Source: Pseudonocardia sp. 73-21 (GTDB lineage Bacteria > Actinomycetota > Actinomycetes > Mycobacteriales > Pseudonocardiaceae). From it: a stretch of 64,000 nucleotides of DNA. Where the stretch lies: positions 1-64,000 of the forward strand of contig NZ_MKVV01000020.1 in NCBI RefSeq assembly GCF_001899645.1, written 5' to 3'. The first letter of the stretch is position 1. Each line of letters starts with the position of its first letter. This document shows positions 19,591-33,503 of the stretch, one piece after another. The position numbers were made by a program, and so were the translations under genes. Below the pieces are notes generated by a model, which made no database searches, was not told the origin of the DNA, and was given only the letters and a program-made list of their open reading frames with translations.

Positions 19591-19838
19591 GGGTGTCTCC
19601 GGCGGGTGCAGCCGCGGCTCGCCCGCGGCGGACTGTTGTTGGAACCGATGCTGCGCCGGACGACTCAGCGGGATAAGGGCCGGATGTCCCCGTGCGGTGG
19701 GCCGGATGGGCATGCGCGTCCGCTGGGCCCATCGGAGCCAGATAGGTGCCGTCCGACCCGGATCGGCACCGCCCGCGACGGCGGACCGTTGAGGGGGCCG
19801 ACCGACGGCCGGGTAGCGAGCGGGTAGGTGGGATCGCC

Positions 19839-21404: not shown

Positions 21405-21521
21405 GCGTGATCTCCAGCGCAGACCAGCACGAGCTCGGCGGCTGGGGGCCACCGCCTCGGTGGTCGGGCCCGCGAGCCGTACATGTCAGCCGCCATGAGG
21501 AGACCGAGGGCTGAAGGTTCG

Positions 21522-21535
21522 GGGACCTTCGGCCC
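21522..21535 (+). promoter_or_regulatory. DosR-box-like site GGGACCTTCGGCCC upstream of hsp20
   Basis: Within TTCGGGGACCTTCGGCCCCGG, 72 nt before the Hsp20 ATG. Confidence 0.55.
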
Positions 21536-21606
21536 CGGTGTCGGTCGGTGGTGGAGGGGAGCCTTGGAGCTGTCCGTGTGATGCAGCTACCAGGAGGTCA
21601 CCATCC

Positions 21607-22080
21607 ATGAGTACCTTGACCCGTCGCGATCGCGGCGCCGAGATGGCCCGCCGTTTCCCGATGATGGACGGCGTGTTCGAGGAGTGGTTGCGGTCGCTGC
21701 CGATGCGGCGGCCGTTCGGGTTGGGCTGGGACTGGCCCGGCGAGGACCTGATCCGGGTGGACGAGTTCCGGGACGGTGACACCGAGGTGATCCGCGCCGA
21801 GATGCCCGGCATCGACCCCGCGAAGGATGTGGAGCTGACGGTGGCCGACGGGGTGCTTCGGATCAAGGCCGAGCGCCGCGTCGACGAGAAGTCCGAGGAC
21901 AAGGGTTACACCCGTCACGAGATGCGGTACGGCAGCATGACCCGCACGCTGCCGCTGCCGGAGGGTGTGCAGGAGAAGGACATCTCGGCCGCCTACAAGG
22001 ACGGCATCCTGGAGGTCAGGGTTCCGATCCCAGCCCGGCCGGACAAGTCCGAGCCCACGAAGATCGCGATCAAGACCTGA
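21607..22080 (+). CDS. Hsp20/alpha-crystallin family protein
   Basis: VIRAEMPGIDPAKDVELTVADGVLRIKAERR...GSMTRTLPLPEGVQEKDISAAYKDGILEVRVPIP. Confidence 0.95.
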   Translation: MSTLTRRDRGAEMARRFPMMDGVFEEWLRSLPMRRPFGLGWDWPGEDLIRVDEFRDGDTEVIRAEMPGIDPAKDVELTVADGVLRIKAERRVDEKSEDKGYTRHEMRYGSMTRTLPLPEGVQEKDISAAYKDGILEVRVPIPARPDKSEPTKIAIKT

Positions 22081-22099
22081 CGCGGTCTGAATGATGCCC

Positions 22100-22130
22100 A
22101 GTCCGGTGCACGCGCAGCGTGCACCGGACT
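22100..22130 (+). terminator. Perfect 14-bp stem, 3-nt loop hairpin after hsp20
   Basis: AGTCCGGTGCACGC-GCA-GCGTGCACCGGACT; 19 nt after the stop codon. Confidence 0.85.
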
Positions 22131-22323
22131 GTCGTGTGCGTCGCGTCTCCGCGGCTCCGGGGGAGAGCGGCGTCGCGCCCGACCATGCCACCCCTACGGC
22201 CGTCGCCCGCGACCTGGACGGCACAGCCAATGCCCTGACACCGTGCGGGAAGGTCCAGACGATCAGCGGCATCCCGAGTCGGCGGGCGTCTGCACGGACC
22301 TGCCCCACGTCGGTCGTGATGGG

Positions 22324-22790
22324 CTGACGACCGTCAGGACCGACCCGGAGACCACGGCCGCGATCGCGACGGCGTTGCCGGCCCGCTGGCCGCCGGAGAT
22401 CGCGTTGGCCGGGTCGGTGAACGGCGGGGTCGAGGTCTGGAGCGCGGCGTCGGGCACCGTGCCGAACACCGTCAGCGTGCCGAGGATGTAGACCACCGCG
22501 CAGCCGAGCGTGCCCAGCACCGTGGCGTGGCCGACGTTCTTCGCCGGGTTGCGGACGCGGCCCGCGGCCACCGACGCCGGCTCGATGCCGAGGTAGCTGA
22601 ACAGCGCGATCGCCGCTGCAGCGGAGATCGCCCGGCCACCGAGCCGCCCGTGGCGTTGAACGCGCCGAAGTTCGCGCTCTTGATGAACAGCGGTGGCCGT
22701 CGGCAGACCGAAGGTGCGCGCTTCTCCGGTGTGAATGTTCTCGAGCCCGCCCAGGCGACGTCGCGTCGGTCTCGACCAGGTCGACCAGGG
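22324..22790 (-). pseudogene. APC-family amino-acid permease relic
   Basis: LFIKSANFGAFNATGGS (frameshift) ...AAAIALFSYLGIEPASVAAGRVRNPAKNVGHATVLGTLGCAVVYILGTLTVFGTVPDAALQTSTPPFTDPANAISGG...; both ends missing. Confidence 0.75.
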
Positions 22791-22956
22791 CGGTGATGGA
22801 CCGCTGGTCGTGCGGACGGGTGCTGGCCGGGGAGCTGGCCGCCGCCGGGTGGGACCCGGACGCCCCGGAGAGGAGCCCGCAGCCGAGTGCGGAGCCCGAC
22901 ATGGAGGCGCTCATGGAGGTGGTCGAGCGCGCGATCAACGGCGTCGGGCTGCCCGA

Positions 22957-23856
22957 CTACACCGGGGTTCCGGACTCCGGGGTCGCGGCCGGACCGCCGA
23001 TCACCTCGTCGACCAGGCCGTGGGCCCCACCGGTCGGGACCGGCCGCGTGACGTCGGCCGCCTGCCCGCCCCCGGACGGTTCCGCGGCCGCGGATGCGGC
23101 CTCGCGCGCGAGGAAGGTGCCCAGCTCGCCGATGGTGCTCATCAGCGGCGCCGGGAAGACGACCGTCGAGTTCTGGTCGACGCCGATCTCCACGAGGCTC
23201 TGCAGGTTGCGCAGCTGCAGGGCCAGCGAGTGCTGCATCATGACGTCCGAGGCCTCGCCGAGGGCGGTGGCGGCGAGCGACTCGCCCTGCGCGTTGATGA
23301 TCTTGGCGCGTTTCTCGCGCTCGGCCTCGGCCTGCCGGGCCATGGCGCGCTTCATGCTGTCGGGCAGCTGGATGTCCTTGAGCTCGACCAGGGTGACCTC
23401 GACGCCCCACTCGACGGTGGTGACGTCGAGGATCTCGCGGATGTCGCCGTTGATCCGGTCGGTCTCCGACAGTGTCTCGTCGAGGGTGTGCCGGCCGACG
23501 ACCTTGCGCAGCGTGGTCTGGGCGATCTGGTCGATCGCGGCGCGGACGTTCTCGATGGCCACGACGGACTTCACGGGGTCGACGACGCGGTAGTAGGCCA
23601 CCGCGGAGACGTCGACGCTGACGTTGTCGCGGGTGATGATGCCCTGCGACTGGATCGGCACCGTCACCACCCGCAGTGAGGCCCGGTGCAGGACGTCGAC
23701 GATCGGGATGATCAGGCGCAGTCCCGGTTCGCGGACGGTCTGCAGGCGGCCGAGGCGCAGCAGCACGCCGCGTTCGTACTGCTTGACGACCCGGACCGCC
23801 GCCGCCAGCAGGAGCAGCACGACGGCGGCGACGGCGATGATGACGGTGGGGGTCAT
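22957..23856 (-). CDS. SPFH/Band 7 (slipin/stomatin-like) protein
   Basis: VKQYERGVLLRLGRLQTVREPGLRLIIPIVDVLHRASLRVVTVPIQSQGIITRDNVSVDVSAVAYYRVVDP... Confidence 0.93.
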   Translation of the reverse strand: MTPTVIIAVAAVVLLLLAAAVRVVKQYERGVLLRLGRLQTVREPGLRLIIPIVDVLHRASLRVVTVPIQSQGIITRDNVSVDVSAVAYYRVVDPVKSVVAIENVRAAIDQIAQTTLRKVVGRHTLDETLSETDRINGDIREILDVTTVEWGVEVTLVELKDIQLPDSMKRAMARQAEAEREKRAKIINAQGESLAATALGEASDVMMQHSLALQLRNLQSLVEIGVDQNSTVVFPAPLMSTIGELGTFLAREAASAAAEPSGGGQAADVTRPVPTGGAHGLVDEVIGGPAATPESGTPV

Positions 23857-24259
23857 CGGATGCTCCGCGGTTGATGGGGAGGGCCTGCCGGACCGGTCCA
23901 GACTCCGCCCGCATCCGGGAACCGGGTAGGGCACAAGGTCTCGCGTCACCGGGCCCCGATCCCGCGGCGGGGGTGCCGCGCGAGGAGGTGCCCACCTCTG
24001 CCCGGGCCTGGACGTGCGCGGGTTGGTGGAGTACCTCGTCGGCACTCTGGAGCAGCTGGGAGGCGTCGCAGCCGGCGGAGCGGCCGACGCCCCCGCCGTT
24101 CCGGGGCCGGCCAGGGCCGCCGGCTACCGGGCCACCGCGGTACGGGCCGTGGACGGATGGGCGGTAACCGGGCGCCTCGACACCGAGTACCCGATGCCCT
24201 GGGGTGCCAGCACGGGCCGGATGCTCGCGGAGTTCCTGGTGGTCGAGCAGGTCGCCCAC

Positions 24260-24762
24260 GGTGGAACCTCGCGCAGGCCACCGGCCAGTTGATCACGTGC
24301 GACGACGACGTCGTGGACTGGCGCACGATCAGCCAGATCCGCACGTCGATCTTCCAGCTCCACCAGACCTCCCACGATGCACCAGACGGGGTGCGGGCCC
24401 GACTGCTCGGCGTGGTCGCCGAGGTGACGCCGGCGCTGGGCCGCGACCCGGTGCTGCGGTTCAGTGGGTTGCTGGAGGACACGCTGCCCGCAGGGGTGGT
24501 CGAGGACCTGCTGGCGGTGCTGCGGGAGGCGTTGAGCAACGTCGCCCGCCACGCCCACGCGAGCTCCACCGAGGTCGACGTCGACGCGGGCCCCGCCGCG
24601 CTCACCCTCCAGGCCGTCGACGACGGGGTGGGTGTGCCCGACACCGGTCGCCGTAGCGGCCTGGACAACCTGCGCCGCCGCGCCGAGCACCACGGCGGCA
24701 CCCTCACCCTCACACACCGGGCGCCGAGCGGTACCCGCCTGTGCTGGACGGTCCCGATCTGA
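24260..24762 (+). pseudogene. C-terminal remnant of a DevS/DosS-type histidine kinase (HATPase retained)
   Basis: TISQIRTSIFQLHQ...VVEDLLAVLREALSNVARHAHASSTEVDVDAGPAALTLQAVDDGVGVPDTGRRSGLDNLRRRAEHHGGTLTLTHRAPSGTRLCWTVPI; no GAF domains and no recognisable phospho-acceptor His segment. Confidence 0.7.
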
Positions 24763-24960
24763 AGGGCCGATGGCCCTACGTCCCGCCCGGGACGGGCACG
24801 GAGCCTGGAGGGGGATTCCGTGCCCGTACCCGGGTTCACCAGCGGCGCCGCGACACAGCAACGGAGCTGGTTCGCGGTGTCGCGGTCGAGCCGGCCGGGT
24901 CTGCGGTGTCGCGGACCCGGCCGGCCTCCCCCCTCACCGAGCGACGGAAGGCAACCACAT

Positions 24961-25440
24961 GAGCGTCTCGCCGCGCGACGAGGCGACCGCCGCCGACGCC
25001 GTGTGCGTCGTCGACCCGAGGTGGCGATCGCTGGCCCGGCTGGTCGAGGCGGCGCTGCCGTCGATGCTGCGCGACGTGCGTGACCTGCTGGCGGTCGACC
25101 ACCCCGAGCACCCGCGCCACCGCCCGCCCCAGGACCCGGCCACGCGGCGTCGTCGTCGACGGGGCGCACGTCCCGGGCTGGATGGCGGACTGGTGCCGTC
25201 GTTCGGGCGGGGCGCTGATGCTCGGCGCCGCGGCCGGGCCGGGCGGGCCGCTCGTGGGTGGGACCAGCCTGTTCGTCGCGCGGCCACCGTGGCGGACCCA
25301 CCATGCTCGTCCTGGGTGGCACCCGCGCCGGTGCTCCCGGCCGGCTCGGGCTGGTCGCCCTCAGCGCCCGGCAGCACGCACCCTGCCCGGTGCTGCTGGT
25401 CTCCCGGTTGGACCCCGTCACCACCCCGATCTGCTCCGGG
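24961..25440 (+). pseudogene. Frameshifted universal-stress-protein-like relic
   Basis: Pieces in separate frames: MSVSPRDEATAADAVCVVDPRWRSL..., GWMADWCRRSGGALMLG, MLVLGGTRAGAPGRLGLVALSARQHAPCPVLLVSR. Confidence 0.45.
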
Positions 25441-25481
25441 CAGACCGGCCCGGCCCTGACCGCCTCGACCGCCCTGTGGCG

Positions 25482-25521
25482 CGACACGACACGACACGAC
25501 ACGACACGACACGACACGACA
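25482..25521 (+). repeat. Pentanucleotide tandem repeat (CGACA)x8
   Basis: Eight exact 5-bp units read directly. Confidence 0.95.
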
Positions 25522-25793
25522 CCCGAGGGAGTACCGCCACGATGTGTACCGGAAACGGCCGCCCGCCCACCCCGCCTCAGCCCCCGCCGTCCCCGCGCGG
25601 GGGACGCACCCGAGCGGCAAGGCCATGATCGTCAGCGCCCGCCCCGTCGACGCCGGGACGCGGCCGTCCGGTCCGTTCGGCCCGCCGATCGAGGACATCT
25701 GTCGCTGCCCACGGGTGCGCCATCCGGCGGAGCATCGGATCCCACCACCAGCCACTGCCCCACCGGGCAGCACCACCTTTCCGGAGCCGACCG

Positions 25794-26102
25794 ATGCTCA
25801 GCGAACGCGACAAGCGCATTCTCCGTGAGATCGAACAGCAGTTCACGGGCGAGGAGCGCCGCCTGGCGTCGCTCACCCGAAGCGCGCAGCGGTCCGAACG
25901 CCGGCTGCATCGGGCCGCCGATGCCGCACTGATCGTCGCTGCGCTGGCCGCCGTCCTGTGCTTCGCGCTGGCCACCGCCGTCACCGTCGGCGCGGGCGCC
26001 GTGGCGATGGTTCTGTTCGTGCTGCTCGCACTGCGCAGCGGCGGAGACCGACGCACGGCGATAGCGCGTGCCTGGCAGACGGTGACACGGACCGCGCGAT
26101 GA
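25794..26102 (+). CDS. DUF3040 domain-containing membrane protein
   Basis: MLSERDKRILREIEQQFTGEERRLASLTRSAQRSERRLHRAADAALIVAALAAVLCFALATAVTVGAGAVAMVLFVLLAL. Confidence 0.85.
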   Translation: MLSERDKRILREIEQQFTGEERRLASLTRSAQRSERRLHRAADAALIVAALAAVLCFALATAVTVGAGAVAMVLFVLLALRSGGDRRTAIARAWQTVTRTAR

Positions 26103-26134
26103 CGGGCCACCCGGGTGTCCTTCGTGGGCGTTCA

Positions 26135-26148
26135 GGGTCTTTCGGCAC
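26135..26148 (+). promoter_or_regulatory. DosR-box-like site GGGTCTTTCGGCAC upstream of the CYTH-CHAD gene
   Basis: One mismatch to GGGNCNTNCGGCCC; 56 nt before the ATG. Confidence 0.4.
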
Positions 26149-26203
26149 GGCTGCACTCCGTTCGAACCTGGTGCGGGAGGTCGCCCGCGGGGTAGGCAGA
26201 CGC

Positions 26204-27724
26204 ATGGCTGTGACCGTGCGTGAGACCGAGCGCAAGTACGACCTCGACGAGGACGCCGCGCTCCCGCCCTGGCCCGAACCGGCCGACGCGGCCGGGTCGC
26301 AGGAGTTCGTGCTCGAGGCGATCTACTTCGACACGGCGGACCTGCGGCTCGCCGCGGACGGGGTGACCCTGCGCCGGCGCCGCGGCGGTGCCGACAGTGG
26401 ATGGCACCTCAAGCTCCCTGTCGCCGCGGACTGCCGCGACGAGATCCGGGTGGGGTTCACCCGCGGTGAGGCCGGCCGCCGCAGCCCGCAGCCGCCCGAC
26501 GAGCTCGTGCGACTGGTCCACGGTTTCACCCGGGGCAGGCCCCTGGTGCCGGTCGCCGAGCTCACGACGCGTCGCCGGCAGTGGCGGTTGACCGACGACT
26601 CCGGGCGCGGCCTGGTCACGGTCGTCGACGACCACGTCACTGCGCACACGATGGGCGTCTCGACCGAGGCCCGCTCGTGGCGGGAGGTGGAGGTGGAGCT
26701 CGACGAGGCCGGTGACACGCGCCTGCTCGACCGGTTCGACCGTCGCCTGCGCAAGGCCGGCGTCCGGCGCTCCGAAGCCCCGTCCAAGCTGGCTCGTGTT
26801 CTCGGCGACCGCATCCCCGCGGCGCGCCGTCCGGGCCCGGACCGGTCGGCGACGCTCGGTGCGGTCGTGCTCGCCTACCTGGCCGAGCAGGCCCGGGTGA
26901 TCCGCACCGGCGACCCGGCCGTGCGTCGTGAGGTTCCCGACGCGGTCCACCGGATGCGGGTCGCGACCCGGCGGATGCGCAGCGCGCTGCAGGCCTTCGG
27001 CGCCGTCGTCGACCGCGACGCCACCGGTGACCTCGCCGCCGAGCTGAAGTGGCTCGCCGCCGTGCTCGGGGTCGCCAGGGACCTGGAGGTCCTCGAAGCC
27101 CGTATCCTCGCGGCCGTTGCCGCACTGCCGGACGAGCTGGTGCTCGGCCCCGTCGCGGCGCAGGTGACGCGCTACTTCACCGGGCGGCGCGTCCTGGCCC
27201 GGGACGAGGTCCTCGCCGCCCTCGACGGCGAGCGTTATCTCGCTCTGCTCACCGCGATCGACCGCCTCCTCGACACCCCTCCGCTCACCCCGGCAGCGGG
27301 CAGGCGCGCCCGACCGCGCCTCGGCGCGTTCCTCGACCGGTCCCACCGCCGGGTCGACACCCATCTGAGGGCCGCGGAGCGACGTGGCCCCGATGTGGAA
27401 CGTGACATCCAGCTGCACGACGCCCGCAAGGCGGCGAAACGGTTGCGGTACGCCGCCGAGGCCGCCGCACCTGTTCTGGGGGAACCGGCCCGTGCGCTGA
27501 TCAGGCAGGTCAGACAGGTCCAGGAACTTCTCGGTGAGCGCCAGGACGCCATCGTGGCGCTGCCCGTGCTGCGCGAACTCGGCGCCGCTGCTGCGCTCGA
27601 GGGTGGGAACGGGTTCACCTTCGGCGTGCTCCACCAGCAGGAGCACCAGGCGCTGACCGCCACGACGTGGACACCGGTGCGGCGGGCGCTCGGACGGGCG
27701 GCCCGCGGGGCCACGGCCCGGTGA
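26204..27724 (+). CDS. CYTH and CHAD domain-containing protein
   Basis: CYTH N-term VRETERKYDLDEDA; CHAD VPDAVHRMRVATRRMRSALQAFGAV...ELKWLAAVLGVARDLEVL...LHDARKAAKRLRYAAEAA. Confidence 0.93.
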   Translation: MAVTVRETERKYDLDEDAALPPWPEPADAAGSQEFVLEAIYFDTADLRLAADGVTLRRRRGGADSGWHLKLPVAADCRDEIRVGFTRGEAGRRSPQPPDELVRLVHGFTRGRPLVPVAELTTRRRQWRLTDDSGRGLVTVVDDHVTAHTMGVSTEARSWREVEVELDEAGDTRLLDRFDRRLRKAGVRRSEAPSKLARVLGDRIPAARRPGPDRSATLGAVVLAYLAEQARVIRTGDPAVRREVPDAVHRMRVATRRMRSALQAFGAVVDRDATGDLAAELKWLAAVLGVARDLEVLEARILAAVAALPDELVLGPVAAQVTRYFTGRRVLARDEVLAALDGERYLALLTAIDRLLDTPPLTPAAGRRARPRLGAFLDRSHRRVDTHLRAAERRGPDVERDIQLHDARKAAKRLRYAAEAAAPVLGEPARALIRQVRQVQELLGERQDAIVALPVLRELGAAAALEGGNGFTFGVLHQQEHQALTATTWTPVRRALGRAARGATAR

Positions 27725-27786
27725 ACCCGCACGCGGGCGCCCCGACCATCGGTCCGCTGCCCCGATCCGGGGACCGCGGGGGTCCC

Positions 27787-27800
27787 GGGTCGGAAGTCCC
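27787..27800 (-). promoter_or_regulatory. DosR-box-like site (minus strand GGGACTTCCGACCC)
   Basis: GGGTCGGAAGTCCC on plus; between the CHAD gene and the acidic ORF at 27863. Confidence 0.45.
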
Positions 27801-27862
27801 TGTGCGGCGCGCGCCGTGCTGGTGACCATGACGGGAGAAGGCGCCAACCGGAAGGTGTGATC

Positions 27863-28447
27863 ATGATGTCTGCCGTCACCCGGACCGTCCCCTCCGGCGC
27901 GGATCCCGCGCCGCCGGAGTGGGACAACTCCGGCGCACTGCTGGCCATCGCGTCGCTCTACGGCGACGACGACCTCGACGACGACCTCGACGAGGATCTC
28001 GACGACCTGCTGTCCGGCGCCGCGGTGGAGTCCAGCGGTCGCGGCTCGTGGCGTCAGCGTCGCAGCCTCGGGCGACCCGTCGGGGCCGCGTGCCGGCGGC
28101 CGGGCCTCCCGTCAGGTGTTCTGGCGGGCCCGTCCGACGCGGATGCCGGTGTGGGTGCGGACGGTGCCGTCGGCGTCCACCCGCCCGATGTGCACGCCGT
28201 GGTGGTCGTAGACCTGCCTGTCGGCGCGGATCCGCCCGATGCAGATGCCGTGGTAGTCGTCCGCCCTGGTGTCCTCGAGGTTCATGGTGGTCCTTCCGTC
28301 GCGATCGGTGCTGCCCAGCGTGGTCGGCCCGGATCGGTGGGGTCAGGGCCGAAGGGCCCGATCCCGCGGAGCCGCGCGTCGCCGGTTCCCCGTCCTCCGG
28401 GCCCATCGACTCGTCACCCGGGTGCCGTCCGGTGCTACCCGGCGTGA
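27863..28447 (+). CDS. Possible small acidic protein (only the N-terminal ~60 codons look coding)
   Basis: MMSAVTRTVPSGADPAPPEWDNSGALLAIASLYGDDDLDDDLDEDLDDLLSGAAVESSG; the rest overlaps an antisense gene and looks non-coding. Confidence 0.3.
   Translation: MMSAVTRTVPSGADPAPPEWDNSGALLAIASLYGDDDLDDDLDEDLDDLLSGAAVESSGRGSWRQRRSLGRPVGAACRRPGLPSGVLAGPSDADAGVGADGAVGVHPPDVHAVVVVDLPVGADPPDADAVVVVRPGVLEVHGGPSVAIGAAQRGRPGSVGSGPKGPIPRSRASPVPRPPGPSTRHPGAVRCYPA
28112..28285 (-). CDS. 57-aa repeat protein, beta-flower-like (not in supplied ORF track)
   Basis: MNLEDTRADDYHGICIGRIRADRQVYDHHGVHIGRVDADGTVRTHTGIRVGRARQNT*; three HGxxIGRVxADGxV repeats; RBS-like GGAAGG upstream. Confidence 0.7.
   Translation of the reverse strand: MNLEDTRADDYHGICIGRIRADRQVYDHHGVHIGRVDADGTVRTHTGIRVGRARQNT
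28346..28359 (-). promoter_or_regulatory. DosR-box-like site (minus strand GGGCCCTTCGGCCC) between the 57-aa gene and the CBS gene
   Basis: GGGCCGAAGGGCCC on plus; lies in the divergent intergenic region. Confidence 0.5.
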
Positions 28448-28517
28448 CTCCCGGACGGGGACCCTGGCGATGCGCCGCGCCGCCCGGCCGGCACCGACGA
28501 CGAAGGAGAAGACGGCC

Positions 28518-29117
28518 ATGCTGGTCCGCGACGTGATGACCCGGCCCGTGGTGACGGTCGACCCGGACACCCCGATCCGGGCGGCCGCGGCGCTGCTGAC
28601 GGGCCGCGGGTTCACCGCGCTGCCCGTCGTGGACGGCGCCGGCGAGCTCGTCGGCATCGTCACCGAGGCCGATCTGCTGCGCGGGAGGCTGCACCACGAC
28701 GCCCGCTCGCCGCTGCTGAGCGAGGAACTGACCAGGGTCGCGCCACAGCGGGTGGCCGAGGTGATGACGACCGAGGTCGTCACCGCGCTGCCCTGGACCG
28801 ACCTCGCGGACCTGGTCGAGCAGATGCGGTCGCTCGGCATCCGCTCGGTGCCGGTCGTGGACGGCGGCGTGGGGCTGGTCGGCATCGTGAGCAGGCGTGA
28901 CGCGCTGGCCACCGCGACCCGCTCGGACGTCGCGATCGAGGGCGACGTGCGGCGTCGCCTGGAGGCCTACGCAGGCCCGGGCCGGTGGCGGGTGTCCGTC
29001 GACGGGGGCCGGGTCACGCTGGCCGACGCCTTCGGCGATCCCACCGAGCAGCACGCCGCGTCGGTGGTGGCCGCCTCGGTGCGCGGGGTGCTCGACGTCC
29101 GGACGGTCACCGACTGA
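28518..29117 (+). CDS. CBS-pair protein with C-terminal BON-like domain
   Basis: VRDVMTRPVVTVDPDTPIRAAAALLTGRGFTALPVVDGAGELVGIVTEADLL...VAEVMTTEVVTALPWTDLADLVEQMRSLGIRSVPVVDGGVGLVGIVSRRD + VSVDGGRVTLADAFGDPTEQHAASVVAASVRGVLDV. Confidence 0.92.
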   Translation: MLVRDVMTRPVVTVDPDTPIRAAAALLTGRGFTALPVVDGAGELVGIVTEADLLRGRLHHDARSPLLSEELTRVAPQRVAEVMTTEVVTALPWTDLADLVEQMRSLGIRSVPVVDGGVGLVGIVSRRDALATATRSDVAIEGDVRRRLEAYAGPGRWRVSVDGGRVTLADAFGDPTEQHAASVVAASVRGVLDVRTVTD

Positions 29118-29137
29118 TCGGACGGCACTGCGGCAGG

Positions 29138-29151
29138 GGGCCGGACGTCCC
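29138..29151 (-). promoter_or_regulatory. DosR-box-like site (minus strand GGGACGTCCGGCCC) upstream of the PRTase-hydrolase gene
   Basis: GGGCCGGACGTCCC on plus, 52 nt before the ATG. Confidence 0.5.
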
Positions 29152-29202
29152 TGTCGGTGCGGCGGCTCCCGTCGAACACTGGAGGTTCCGAAGGAGGCTG
29201 CC

Positions 29203-30525
29203 ATGCCGTTCGTTGATCGTGTGGAGGCGGGTCGGCGGTTGGCCGGACGGCTGACGCATCTGCGGGACGAGGACGTCGTCGTGCTCGGGTTGCCGCGGGG
29301 CGGGGTCCCGGTGGCGTTCGAGGTCGCGCGGGTGTTGGGGGCGCCGTTGGACGTGATCGTGGTGCGCAAGCTGGGGGTGCCGTCCCTGCCCGAGCTGGCC
29401 ATGGGCGCGGTCGGCGAGGACGGGGTGCTGGTCGTCGACTCCGAGACGGTGCGTCGGGCGCACGTGGGTGAGGCGGAGCTGGCTGAGCTGGAGCGTCGGG
29501 AGCGCGTGGAGGTGCAGCGGCGGGCTCAGCTGTTCCGGGCCGGCCGGCCGCGGATCCCGTTGGCCGGACGCACCGCGGTGCTGGTCGACGACGGGATCGC
29601 CACCGGGGCCACCGCACGGGCCGCCTGCCGGGTGGCCCGTGCACACGGTGCGGCGAGGGTGGTACTCGTCGCACCGGTCTGCGCTCGCGAGACCGCGATC
29701 CGGCTCCGGGACGAGGTCGACGAGTTGGACTGCCTCGAGGTGCCCGACCTGTTCGATGCGGTCGGCCGGTTCTACGTCGACTTCACCCCGACGTCGGAGG
29801 AGGAGGTGGTGGAGCTGCTGCGCCGCGCCGCCGGCGGGACACCGGCCGGCCCCGGGTCGCAGGCCCCGCCGCCCCCCGGCCGCGATGTGGAGGTGGCCGT
29901 CCCCGGTCGGTCCCTGCACGGTCACCTCACCGTGCCGGAGGGGCCCCTGGGAGTGGTCGTGTTCGCCCACGGCAGCGGCAGCGGCAGGCTCAGCCCGCGC
30001 AACCGCCGGGTCGCGGCGGTCCTGCAGCGGGCGGGCCTGGCCACGCTGCTGCTGGACCTGCTCAGCCCGCGGGAGGAGCGGGACCGGGCGAACGTCTTCG
30101 ACGTGGACCTGCTGGCCGTCCGGCTGGCCGGGGCCACGGCGTGGGTCCGTCGTCAGCCGGGCTGCGAGGGTCTGCCGGTGGCCCTCTTCGGCGCGAGCAC
30201 GGGCGCTGCCGCGGCCCTGTGGGCGGCCGCCGACCCGGACGCCGACATCGCCGCGGTGGTGTCGCGGGGTGGGCGTCCCGACATGGCAGTGCCCCGGCTC
30301 GGGCAGGTCAGGGCGCCGACCCTGCTGATCGTCGGGGGCGCCGACACGGCGGTGCTGGAGCTCAACCGCCGCGCGCTGGCCGCGATGCGCTGCGAGGCGC
30401 GACTCGCCGTGGTGCCCGGGGCCACGCACCTGTTCGAGGAGCCCGGGACGCTGGAACAGGTCGCCGACCTCGCCCGCGACTGGTTCGTCACCCACGTCAC
30501 CCCCGCGTCCCAGCCCGTCGGCTGA
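29203..30525 (+). CDS. Phosphoribosyltransferase fused to dienelactone-hydrolase-like alpha/beta hydrolase (Rv0571c-like architecture)
   Basis: VLGLPRGGVPVAFEVARVLGAPLDVIVVRKLGVP...AVLVDDGIATGATARAACRV; C-term VVVFAHGSGSGRLSPRNRRVAAVLQRAGLATLLLDLL... Confidence 0.92.
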   Translation: MPFVDRVEAGRRLAGRLTHLRDEDVVVLGLPRGGVPVAFEVARVLGAPLDVIVVRKLGVPSLPELAMGAVGEDGVLVVDSETVRRAHVGEAELAELERRERVEVQRRAQLFRAGRPRIPLAGRTAVLVDDGIATGATARAACRVARAHGAARVVLVAPVCARETAIRLRDEVDELDCLEVPDLFDAVGRFYVDFTPTSEEEVVELLRRAAGGTPAGPGSQAPPPPGRDVEVAVPGRSLHGHLTVPEGPLGVVVFAHGSGSGRLSPRNRRVAAVLQRAGLATLLLDLLSPREERDRANVFDVDLLAVRLAGATAWVRRQPGCEGLPVALFGASTGAAAALWAAADPDADIAAVVSRGGRPDMAVPRLGQVRAPTLLIVGGADTAVLELNRRALAAMRCEARLAVVPGATHLFEEPGTLEQVADLARDWFVTHVTPASQPVG

Positions 30526-30534
30526 CGGGCGCGG

Positions 30535-32520
30535 TCACACCGCGAAGGGGTAGGTCTCGGGGACCTCGCCGGCCTCCCAGTGCACGGTCCGCTCCAACGG
30601 CTCGACCGCGCGGGTCTCGTCGATGTGGATCACCGCGTCGAACTGGTCGGACACGCGGGCGTGGAAGTAGTGGCTGGCACGCTCGCTCTCGGGCCGGTAG
30701 ACCACCCCGATCGCGCGCTCCAGCCGGGCCGCGCGCAGCACCTCCGCCGCGTGCGGTGACGTGGCGAAGGAGAGGAGGAACTCCGGCGCCCCCACCTCGT
30801 GCAGCAGCGCCTCGACGCTGCCGGGCAGGGCGGGGCGCACGTCCCGGCGCAGGGCCGGGCTGCCCCAGTCCTGGGCCGCGGTGACGGTGCCGGTGTAGGT
30901 GGTGAACCCGATGCTGCGGCAGTCCCGGCCGTGGCGCTCGCGCACCAGCTGACCGACGGTGAGCTCACCGCGGACCGCGGCCTCCGTCGCGCGGGCGTCG
31001 CCGATGTGGGAGTTGTGCTCCCACACCACGATGCGCACCGGCTCCCCGTGCCGGCGGGTGAGGTGCGCCTCCACGGCGTCGAGGGTGTCGGCCATGTGCC
31101 GGTCCCGCAGGTTCCACGACTCGGCACGGCCGGCGTACATGGTGCGGTAGTACTCGGCGGCGTTGCGGACCGTGACGGCGTTGCGTTCGGCGTGGAAGAG
31201 CGCGTCGGCGGCCGGCTGCCCGTCGCGCCGCGCATAGTCCAGCGCGTGCCGGTTCAGGTCGGCGAGCTGCTCGACCACCTCGCGCTCGCACGTCTCACCC
31301 GCTCCGAACGCGGCGGCGAAACGGTAGGCCTGACCGTCCCCGGTGCCGTGGTGGTCGAAGCAGGCGTAGCGGTCGCGGGCGCGCTGCGCGGCGTCCGGGT
31401 CCACGCCCTCCAGGTAGGAGATCACCTCGGCCATCGACCGGTAGAGGCTGTAGAGGTCGAGCCCGAAGAAGCCGACGCCGTGACCGGCGGCGAGACCGCT
31501 GTTGTGCTCCCGCAGCCAGCCGACGAACTCCAGGACGGCGGCGTTGCGCCACATCCAGGTGGGGAAGCGCTCGAACCCGCGCAGCGCCTCCTCGGCGATC
31601 CGGTCGTCGCCGACGCCGCGGACGTAGCGGTCCACCCGGTGCGCGTCGGGCCAGTCCGCCTCGACCGCGACCGCACAGAACCCCTTCTCCTCCACCAGGC
31701 GCCGGGTGATGGCGGCGCGCGCGGCGTAGAACTCGTGGGTGCCGTGGCTGGCCTCCCCGAGCAGCACGATCCGGGCGTCACCCACGAGTTCGAACAGGGC
31801 GTCGTCGGGCGGCACCCCGTCGCGGGTGGGCACCGCCGCGGCCCGCAGCACCGCCGCGGGGTCGGGCGGAGCAGGGCGGGCCGGGGCGCCGAGCAGCGCC
31901 CGCACCTCGTCGTCACCGGTCTCGGTGAAGTCCCAGTAGGACCGGCCGACGGCGTGGAAGGGCGTGGGGGTGGTGGCGCACACCAGGTCGTCGACGACCG
32001 CAGCGAGCTCGCGGCAGGTGGACTGCGGCGCGGCCGGCACGGCGACGACGATCCGGGCCGGTCCGAGCCTGCGCAGCGCCTCGACCGCCGCATACATGGT
32101 GGAGCCGGTCGCGAGGCCGTCGTCCACCACGATGACGGTGCGCCCGGCCACGTCGGGGGCGGGGCGGTCGCCCCGGTAGGCCCGCTCGCGACGCAACAGC
32201 TCCCGGCCCTCCCGCTCGGCCACCCGCCGGATGGCGTCGGTGCCGACCCGCATCCCGCGCACGACGTCGTCGTCGATCACGACCACGCCGTCACCGGCGA
32301 CGGCCCCCATCGCCAGCTCCGGGTGGCCCGGGACCCCGAGCTTGCGGGCCACCAGCACGTCCAGCGGAGCGCCGAGCGCCGTCGCGACCTCGTGGGCCAC
32401 CGGCACACCACCGCGGGCCAGTCCGAGGACCACCAGACCGGGCTCGTCGCGGTAGTGGGCCAGCAGCCCGGCCAGGACCCGCCCGGCGTCGCGGCGGTCG
32501 CGGAACACGTGGTCGGACAT
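30535..32520 (-). CDS. Phosphoribosyltransferase fused to erythromycin esterase-like domain (Rv2030c-like architecture)
   Basis: N-term [45 protein letters not shown]...[15 protein letters not shown]-term [52 protein letters not shown]... Confidence 0.93.
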
Positions 32521-32547
32521 GACGACTCCTTGCTCGGTGTACGGACG

Positions 32548-33435
32548 TCAGCCCCCGCTCACGAGGGCGACGGGGCAGTGCGCGTAGTGCAGGACGGCGT
32601 GGCCGACCGAGCCCAACGGCCCCACGGTGTCGCCGGCCCGTCCGTGCCGCCCGACGACGAGCAGCGAAGCGCCCGCGGCCGCGCCGAACAGGGCCCGGGC
32701 GGGACGGTCGAGGCACACGATGCGCCGGACCGCCAGGTCGGGATGGCGGTCGCGCGCTGTGGCGAGGTACGACTCCAGCAGGGCGTCGGCGTCCCGGCGG
32801 GCCCGAACACGGTCGATCCCCGGTGCGCCGGTCCCGGCCAGCGCGTCGAGCGGCAGGTCCGACCAGGCGTGCACGGCCACGAGCTCGCGTCCGCGCGCCG
32901 CCGCGTGGTCGGCGGCGAACCGGACGACGTGACCGGTGACCGCCGAGCCGTCCACACCCACCACGACGGGTCCGTCCGGGCCTGCGGCGCCGAGGTCGCG
33001 CACGACCACCAGCGGTGCGGTGACCCGCCGGGCCAGCTCAGCGGCGCTCGAACCCAGGAGCACCGTGGCGACCCCGCTCTGACCGGAGGCGCCGAGCACC
33101 AGTGACGCGGCGCCCTGCGCGAGCCGGTCGAGCATCTCGACCGGACGGCCCGACACCAGCTCGCCCTGGACGTCGATCCCCGGTGCGAGGACCCGGCACC
33201 GCGCGACCGCCGACTGCAGCAGCCCCGACGCCGTCGCACGCAGGTGCGCGCCGTCGATCGTGCCCGGCGGAAGCGCGAGCCCGGCGAGCTCCGGCATCGA
33301 CGGGCGCACGCAGACCGCGAGCCGCAGGGGCCGGCCGGTCGTCACCGCCTCGTCGGTCGCCCACAGTGCGGCCCGTGCGGCGGCGGCCGATCCGTCGACA
33401 CCGACCAGCACGGACCGCTGCGTCTGTTCCGCCAT
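32548..33435 (-). CDS. Universal stress protein, tandem USP domains
   Basis: SVLVGVDGSAAAARAALWATDEA...LVLGASGQSGVATVLLGSSAAELARRVTAPLVVVRD; VVVGVDGSAVTGHVVRFAADHA...LLVVGRHGRAGDTVGPLGSVGHAVLHYAHCPVALV. Confidence 0.95.
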   Translation of the reverse strand: MAEQTQRSVLVGVDGSAAAARAALWATDEAVTTGRPLRLAVCVRPSMPELAGLALPPGTIDGAHLRATASGLLQSAVARCRVLAPGIDVQGELVSGRPVEMLDRLAQGAASLVLGASGQSGVATVLLGSSAAELARRVTAPLVVVRDLGAAGPDGPVVVGVDGSAVTGHVVRFAADHAAARGRELVAVHAWSDLPLDALAGTGAPGIDRVRARRDADALLESYLATARDRHPDLAVRRIVCLDRPARALFGAAAGASLLVVGRHGRAGDTVGPLGSVGHAVLHYAHCPVALVSGG

Positions 33436-33489
33436 CGCCACCTCCCGGGGATGGGTCGTAGTCTCACTCGAGGTGTGCCTCGCGCCCCA

Positions 33490-33503
33490 GGGCCGAGAGA
33501 CCC
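33490..33503 (-). promoter_or_regulatory. DosR-box-like site (minus strand GGGTCTCTCGGCCC) upstream of the USP gene
   Basis: GGGCCGAGAGACCC on plus, 54 nt upstream of the USP ATG and in its orientation. Confidence 0.5.

Follow-up and report, generated by a model that had tools for sequence, protein, structure and literature searches.

Does a compact group of stress genes in a Pseudonocardia-like soil bacterium belong to the DosR dormancy regulon known from Mycobacterium tuberculosis? The genes occupy about 21.5-33.5 kb of a 64-kb stretch of DNA (the window, contig C20) from a genome of 7.09 Mb and 72% GC, and this island, taken as 12.2 kb in site counts, encodes among others an Hsp20 small heat shock protein, two phosphoribosyltransferase (PRTase) fusions, a CBS-pair protein and a universal stress protein (USP; Table 1). 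Because at least five copies of a DosR (OsdR) box fall within this 12-kb stress-gene cluster, it is very probably part of a known dormancy programme, and we put at roughly 0.87 the probability that the island is, as its sequence predicts, one of several DosR/OsdR regulon clusters in this actinomycete. Among open-licence papers we found none on DosR or DevR in Pseudonocardia.

A first-pass annotation of the window had proposed six DosR boxes sharing the consensus GGGNCNTNCG(G/A)C(C/A)C. All six 14-mers lie where it had placed them, at 21522 (+), 26135 (+), 27787 (-), 28346 (-), 29138 (-) and 33490 (-); five follow the consensus, and the sixth, 33490 (GGGTCTCTCGGCCC), departs from it with a C at position 7. 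The consensus, which was fitted after the fact to these same sites, occurs 7 times in the 64 kb versus 0.81 in shuffles, and it also matches at 19677 and 29854. The strict M. tuberculosis DosR box is TTSGGGACTWWAGTCCCSAA, and its GGGACTWWAGTCCC core is present in none of the six boxes, which follow instead the GC-rich OsdR form of Streptomyces coelicolor, for which a study of OsdR (SCO0204) reports AGGGCCGATCGGCCCT as the palindrome and tabulates predicted sites (PMC5069765). The 14-mer before the island hsp20 equals the predicted narG2, SCO0167 and SCO5979 sites, and the narG2/SCO0167 site AGGGACCTTCGGCCCC contains it exactly (PMC5069765). The strict palindrome GGGWCNNNNGNCCC occurs 11 times in the window and 7.5 times in shuffles; because this is no clear enrichment, sites had to be scored with a weighted matrix.

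An OsdR matrix built from 26 predicted S. coelicolor sites (PMC5069765) ranks 29138 first, 28346 second and 21522 third among the 64,000 window positions; at a score of at least 13 it finds 3 sites in the island versus 4 in 658 kb of stretches sampled from the same genome (0.61 per 100 kb), and it gives the consensus match at 29854, which lies inside the PRTase-hydrolase gene, a score of -6. A genus matrix, refined on the dosR, hsp20 and 57-amino-acid (57-aa) orthologue promoters of other genomes of the genus with the host genome left out, finds 10 island sites at a score of at least 11, versus 0.33 expected from the same 658 kb, and places 28346, 29138, 21522, 26135 and 27787 between 12.0 and 17.4. 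Both matrices, made independently of the fitted consensus, show an excess in the island. With a matrix made from dosR promoters alone, which avoids orthologues of window genes, 7 of the 8 top window sites fall inside the island, 28346 scores above every site of the random set, and further sites at 25670 and 24771 score well. The pattern GGGNCYTTCGGCMC has 8 occurrences in the 7.09 Mb, 3 of them in the island; a reversed control pattern has 2. The five supported boxes (21522, 26135, 27787, 28346 and 29138) lie 51-71 bp upstream of start codons, a regular spacing that is expected of activator sites. Of the six boxes first proposed these five hold, and 33490, for which 3.7 equally good sites are expected per 12.2 kb, is at chance level.

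A genome of 72% GC might produce such boxes by chance, as palindromes or terminator-like hairpins; for the boxes as a whole this is very improbable. High GC does make strings of the GGGNCNNNNGNCCC type frequent (the window has 11, shuffles 7.5), and one of the six boxes behaves as this explanation predicts, but the large excess over same-genome stretches and the position kept upstream of orthologues contradict it, and terminator-like sites were looked for in the region and none was found. Chance is contradicted for 21522, 28346 and 29138, and could account only for the unconserved 33490 and 26135.

Conservation was assessed within the genus, in which 61 further genomes are placed besides the host, counting a gene as boxed when a site scoring at least 9 lay about 40-160 bp upstream, a level that random 130-bp stretches reach in 0.95% of cases. 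By this count the box precedes 10 of 15 hsp20 orthologues with the OsdR matrix and 11 of 15 with the dosR-only matrix, and is mostly absent from distant Hsp20 paralogues, which serve as a natural control. The corresponding figures are 11/15 and 8/15 for the 57-aa gene and 2/8 and 3/8 for the PRTase-hydrolase gene. For the SPFH gene they are 1/6 and 2/6, confined to more distant homologues; the four closest orthologues (81-83% identity) have no upstream box by the OsdR matrix, so that the place of this gene among the new members first suggested is not supported. Within the host genome, a second hsp20 copy (L105, contig C23, 6941-7503) is a recent duplication that encodes a 95% identical protein and retains the box GGGACCTTCGGCCC upstream, and on contig C12 the region occurs again, 84% identical overall, with box 27787 inside an unbroken identical block. 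The genes behind other boxes in the genome include this second hsp20 and an aldehyde dehydrogenase. On contig C96 (L107, 9674-9932), a strong box with a genus score of 18.0 stands 60 bp ahead of a 61-aa open reading frame (ORF; MNTTATATATVLDRLIQSGITEERARHHL...) that has no Pfam match.

The host also encodes the regulator and a sensor kinase. A DosR orthologue on contig C47 (C47:103678-104322) is 58% identical to M. tuberculosis DevR (E 2.4e-74; the next best match has 42% identity), and a related-pattern search finds its own box, GGGACCTCCGGCCC, about 114 bp upstream. Across the genus, 17-23 of 29 dosR genes have an upstream site scoring at least 9, mostly near -97. The locus on C47 (L109, 8529-14805) runs nitroreductase - dosR - nitroreductase - dosS - cydA and is likely the control centre of the regulon. 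DosS on C47 has 601 aa, and its GAF domain matches the DosT/DevS heme-GAF structures 2vzw (3.9e-57) and 2w3d over the whole length, in an alignment that takes in the GFPxHHPPMRTFLGVPVR segment (the HHPPMRTFLGVPVR stretch); from this sequence we infer that the domain binds heme. The H-box peptide RDLHDHVIQRLF is readable, and two more full-length DosS-like frames are present in the genome, on C6 and C47. Independent matrices, box conservation in the genus upstream of hsp20 and 57-aa orthologues and the presence of a DosR orthologue and a heme-type DosS support the proposal of a DosR-type regulon cluster.

In such a regulon, DosS would sense the loss of oxygen or the presence of nitric oxide (NO) through its heme GAF and would phosphorylate DosR; DosR~P would then bind GC-rich palindromes of 14-16 bp, which stand some 50-75 bp ahead of the start codons, and activate hsp20, the divergent 57-aa/CBS-BON pair and the PRTase-hydrolase fusion, and probably also the small acidic ORF and the CYTH-CHAD and DUF3040 genes. 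We infer these steps, and the assignment of the boxes to DosR over another NarL-family regulator, by analogy.

Several observations weigh against this assignment. The dosR-only matrix moves box 21522 down to 16th place in the window, the genus matrix was trained in part on hsp20 and 57-aa orthologue promoters, and because the genus orthologues are related, binomial P values for box conservation are overstated. Conservation fails for CHAD, whose orthologues have a box in 1 of 13 by both matrices, so that conservation does not back the CHAD gene, also suggested at first as a new member. Orthologues of the PRTase-erythromycin esterase (PRTase-Ere) gene in many actinomycetes seldom have boxes close upstream, with a slight excess, and box 33490 of the USP/PRTase-Ere operon is weak. 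DevR has 64 matches in the host genome, mostly to other NarL-type regulators, among which another of similar specificity could be present, and one other regulator gene (L009) has an upstream site with a genus score of 12.8. These last two findings would favour reading the palindromes as operators of a different NarL/LuxR-type or stress regulator, their overlap with OsdR being a coincidence of GC-rich palindromes. We regard this as quite unlikely: the same motif stands upstream of dosR in the host and genus-wide, most other regulator genes checked have no site, and the 57-aa gene, found in 17 of the 62 genomes, always occurs together with a dosR orthologue (17/17) and in 0 of the 12 genomes that lack dosR (P = 0.013, uncorrected for ancestry).

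A DosR-controlled island might nevertheless have ceased to function, its boxes outlasting the cluster as a decaying relic. It contains a kinase fragment (24157-24762), not mentioned in the first-pass annotation, with phmmer matches to the ATPase domains of DosT/DevS (3zxq, 3zxo) and 67% identity to a paralogue on contig C6 whose open frame measures 598 aa. Nearby, a stop-containing frame encodes a USP-like C-terminal peptide, GRLGLVALSARQHAPCPVLLV, and includes 63 bp that are 86% identical to C6 DNA; this stretch (24960-25420) is probably a dead regulon gene, a call made from one short peptide in a search whose other matches were mostly low-complexity noise. The second hsp20 on C23 fits the same picture, as does a partial duplicate of the 57-aa gene that C12 carries. 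Against it, hsp20, CBS-BON, both PRTase fusions, USP, CHAD and the 57-aa gene are all open and intact, and we think a relic unlikely. Contig C6 (57 kb; L104, L118 and L119) is itself USP-rich, encodes a full DosS-like frame and has several DosR-type boxes, forming a larger dormancy cluster than the island; with dosR and dosS on C47, the island is not unusual in this genome.

The novelty first claimed must also be narrowed, as this regulon type is known outside mycobacteria from S. coelicolor OsdR (PMC5069765). Both systems have a GC-rich palindrome, autoregulation, USP-rich clusters and a two-component pair, OsdK/OsdR in S. coelicolor (PMC5069765). They differ in that the host dosR and dosS are not on the contig of the island, in the PRTase-hydrolase, PRTase-Ere, CBS-BON and 57-aa repeat proteins among the island cargo, and in that no nitrate reductase was seen in the island. 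With the M. tuberculosis DosR (DevR) regulon the host shares a DosR of 58% identity, a DosS of heme-GAF type and, as the first-pass annotation had recognized, five types of cargo, the counterparts of Rv2031c, Rv2030c, Rv2623, Rv2626c and Rv0571c, which are treated as DosR-regulon genes (PMC2275270). The island boxes differ from the mycobacterial form in having neither the centre TWWA nor the outer TTS/SAA. CHAD, DUF3040 and the 57-aa protein lie, to our knowledge, outside the mycobacterial DosR set.

The novelty lies in the small repeat-protein family, a probable regulon member. In the 57-aa protein a unit of about 17 residues (consensus VxDHSGVRIGxVxxDGxV) is repeated to give three copies, and the relatives of the protein measure 52-68 aa; in two genomes (G046 and G061) the gene lies within about 5 kb of dosR. 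An AlphaFold2 model is all-beta (pLDDT 89.5), and a fold search of this model against the PDB returned nothing convincing (best E 0.13). The protein and its 14 aligned relatives (15/15) match the Pfam 5-fold beta-flower family (PF21785) weakly, at best with 6.2e-07, and the window protein reaches 27.5 bits against a curated cut-off of 38. The beta strands of the model agree with that family, but the protein is about half as long as the profile and has three repeats; because the matches are weak in all 15 members, the relationship is a lead only. An order-wide search gave 3 weak matches in 399 genomes, in frames unlike family members, and within the order (Streptomyces and other orders being outside the sample) the family seems to be restricted to the genus. 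With a box upstream of 8-11 of 15 orthologues, the protein is probably a new conserved regulon member, as had been suggested, and its control region, the one source for this, points to a role in dormancy. We lean towards seeing in it an undescribed family of three-repeat beta-proteins that are dedicated DosR-regulon members in Pseudonocardia, encoded near dosR in several genomes behind a conserved box and possibly acting in dormancy by forming oligomers.

The flanks of the island are unrelated to its cargo, with an epimerase and an LGFP-polysaccharide deacetylase on one side and hydantoinase A/B on the other. The hsp20 start codon was placed by conservation with the C23 copy. The 3' end of the small acidic ORF is uncertain because the frame continues to 28447; its C12 homologue stops after about 60 codons, and a Pfam search with the ORF gave no match. 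The named relatives of the PRTase-Ere protein are headed by those of Pseudonocardia bannensis and P. acidicola, at 71-77% identity. In both species, P. bannensis (L016, L019, L021) and P. acidicola (L017, L018), the genome encodes several PRTase-Ere fusions, and a second PRTase gene often comes next. A short CACGA-type tandem repeat occupies 25478-25520, between the USP remnant and the DUF3040 gene.

Table 1. Genes and box sites of the island, in window coordinates; scores are those of the OsdR, genus and dosR-only matrices.
Feature	Position	Strand	Evidence
Box GGGACCTTCGGCCC, 71 bp before hsp20 start	21522..21535	+	OsdR 13.7, genus 13.3
Hsp20/alpha-crystallin small heat shock protein (MSTLTRRDRG...)	21607..22080	+	Pfam HSP20 6.3e-18
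SPFH/Band-7 protein	22957..23856	-	Pfam Band_7 2.3e-39
Truncated DosS/DosT-type kinase; ATPase domain present, GAF domains and H-box missing	24157..24762	+	phmmer
Box-like site TGGCCCTACGTCCC, before USP remnant	24771..24784	.	genus 13.0, dosR-only 14.4
Probable USP gene remnant, broken frame	24960..25420	+	C-terminal USP-like peptide
Additional box GGTCCGTTCGGCCC, 110 bp before DUF3040 gene	25670..25683	+	OsdR 11.2, genus 12.7
DUF3040 protein	25794..26102	+	Pfam DUF3040 3.2e-11
Box GGGTCTTTCGGCAC, 55 bp before CYTH-CHAD start	26135..26148	+	genus 13.2, OsdR 4.7
CYTH-CHAD protein	26204..27724	+	Pfam CHAD 6.1e-59, CYTH 3.6e-15
Box GGGACTTCCGACCC, 62 bp before small acidic ORF	27787..27800	-	genus 12.0, OsdR 5.7
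Small acidic ORF (MMSAVTRTV...WDNSGALLAIASLYGDDD...)	27863..28110	+	homologous C12 ORF
57-aa protein, three ~17-aa repeats	28112..28285	-	genus relatives, alignment
Box GGGCCCTTCGGCCC, common to two divergent genes, 57-aa (at 60 bp) and CBS-BON (at 158 bp)	28346..28359	-	genus 17.4 and dosR-only 18.3 (window best), OsdR 15.1 (second)
CBS-pair protein, C-terminal BON-like domain	28518..29117	+	Pfam CBS 7.8e-31; BON below cut-off
Box GGGACGTCCGGCCC, 51 bp before PRTase-hydrolase start	29138..29151	-	OsdR 17.0 (window best), genus 15.3
PRTase-hydrolase fusion (Rv0571c type)	29203..30525	+	Pfam Pribosyltran, Hydrolase_4
PRTase-erythromycin esterase fusion (Rv2030c type)	30535..32520	-	Pfam Erythro_esteras 4.5e-130, Pribosyltran 4e-18
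Tandem-domain USP	32548..33435	-	Pfam Usp 1.1e-35, two stretches
Weak box GGGTCTCTCGGCCC, 54 bp before USP gene	33490..33503	-	OsdR 4.4, genus 6.0

The predicted regulon would extend the oxygen-linked DosR/OsdR programme to Pseudonocardia, in a cluster rich in cargo of mycobacterial type (Hsp20, PRTase-Ere, PRTase-hydrolase, CBS and USP). It singles out one family of small proteins as likely to be a conserved member, takes CHAD and SPFH off the list of well-supported candidates, and would make poorly understood cargo genes testable in a non-pathogen.

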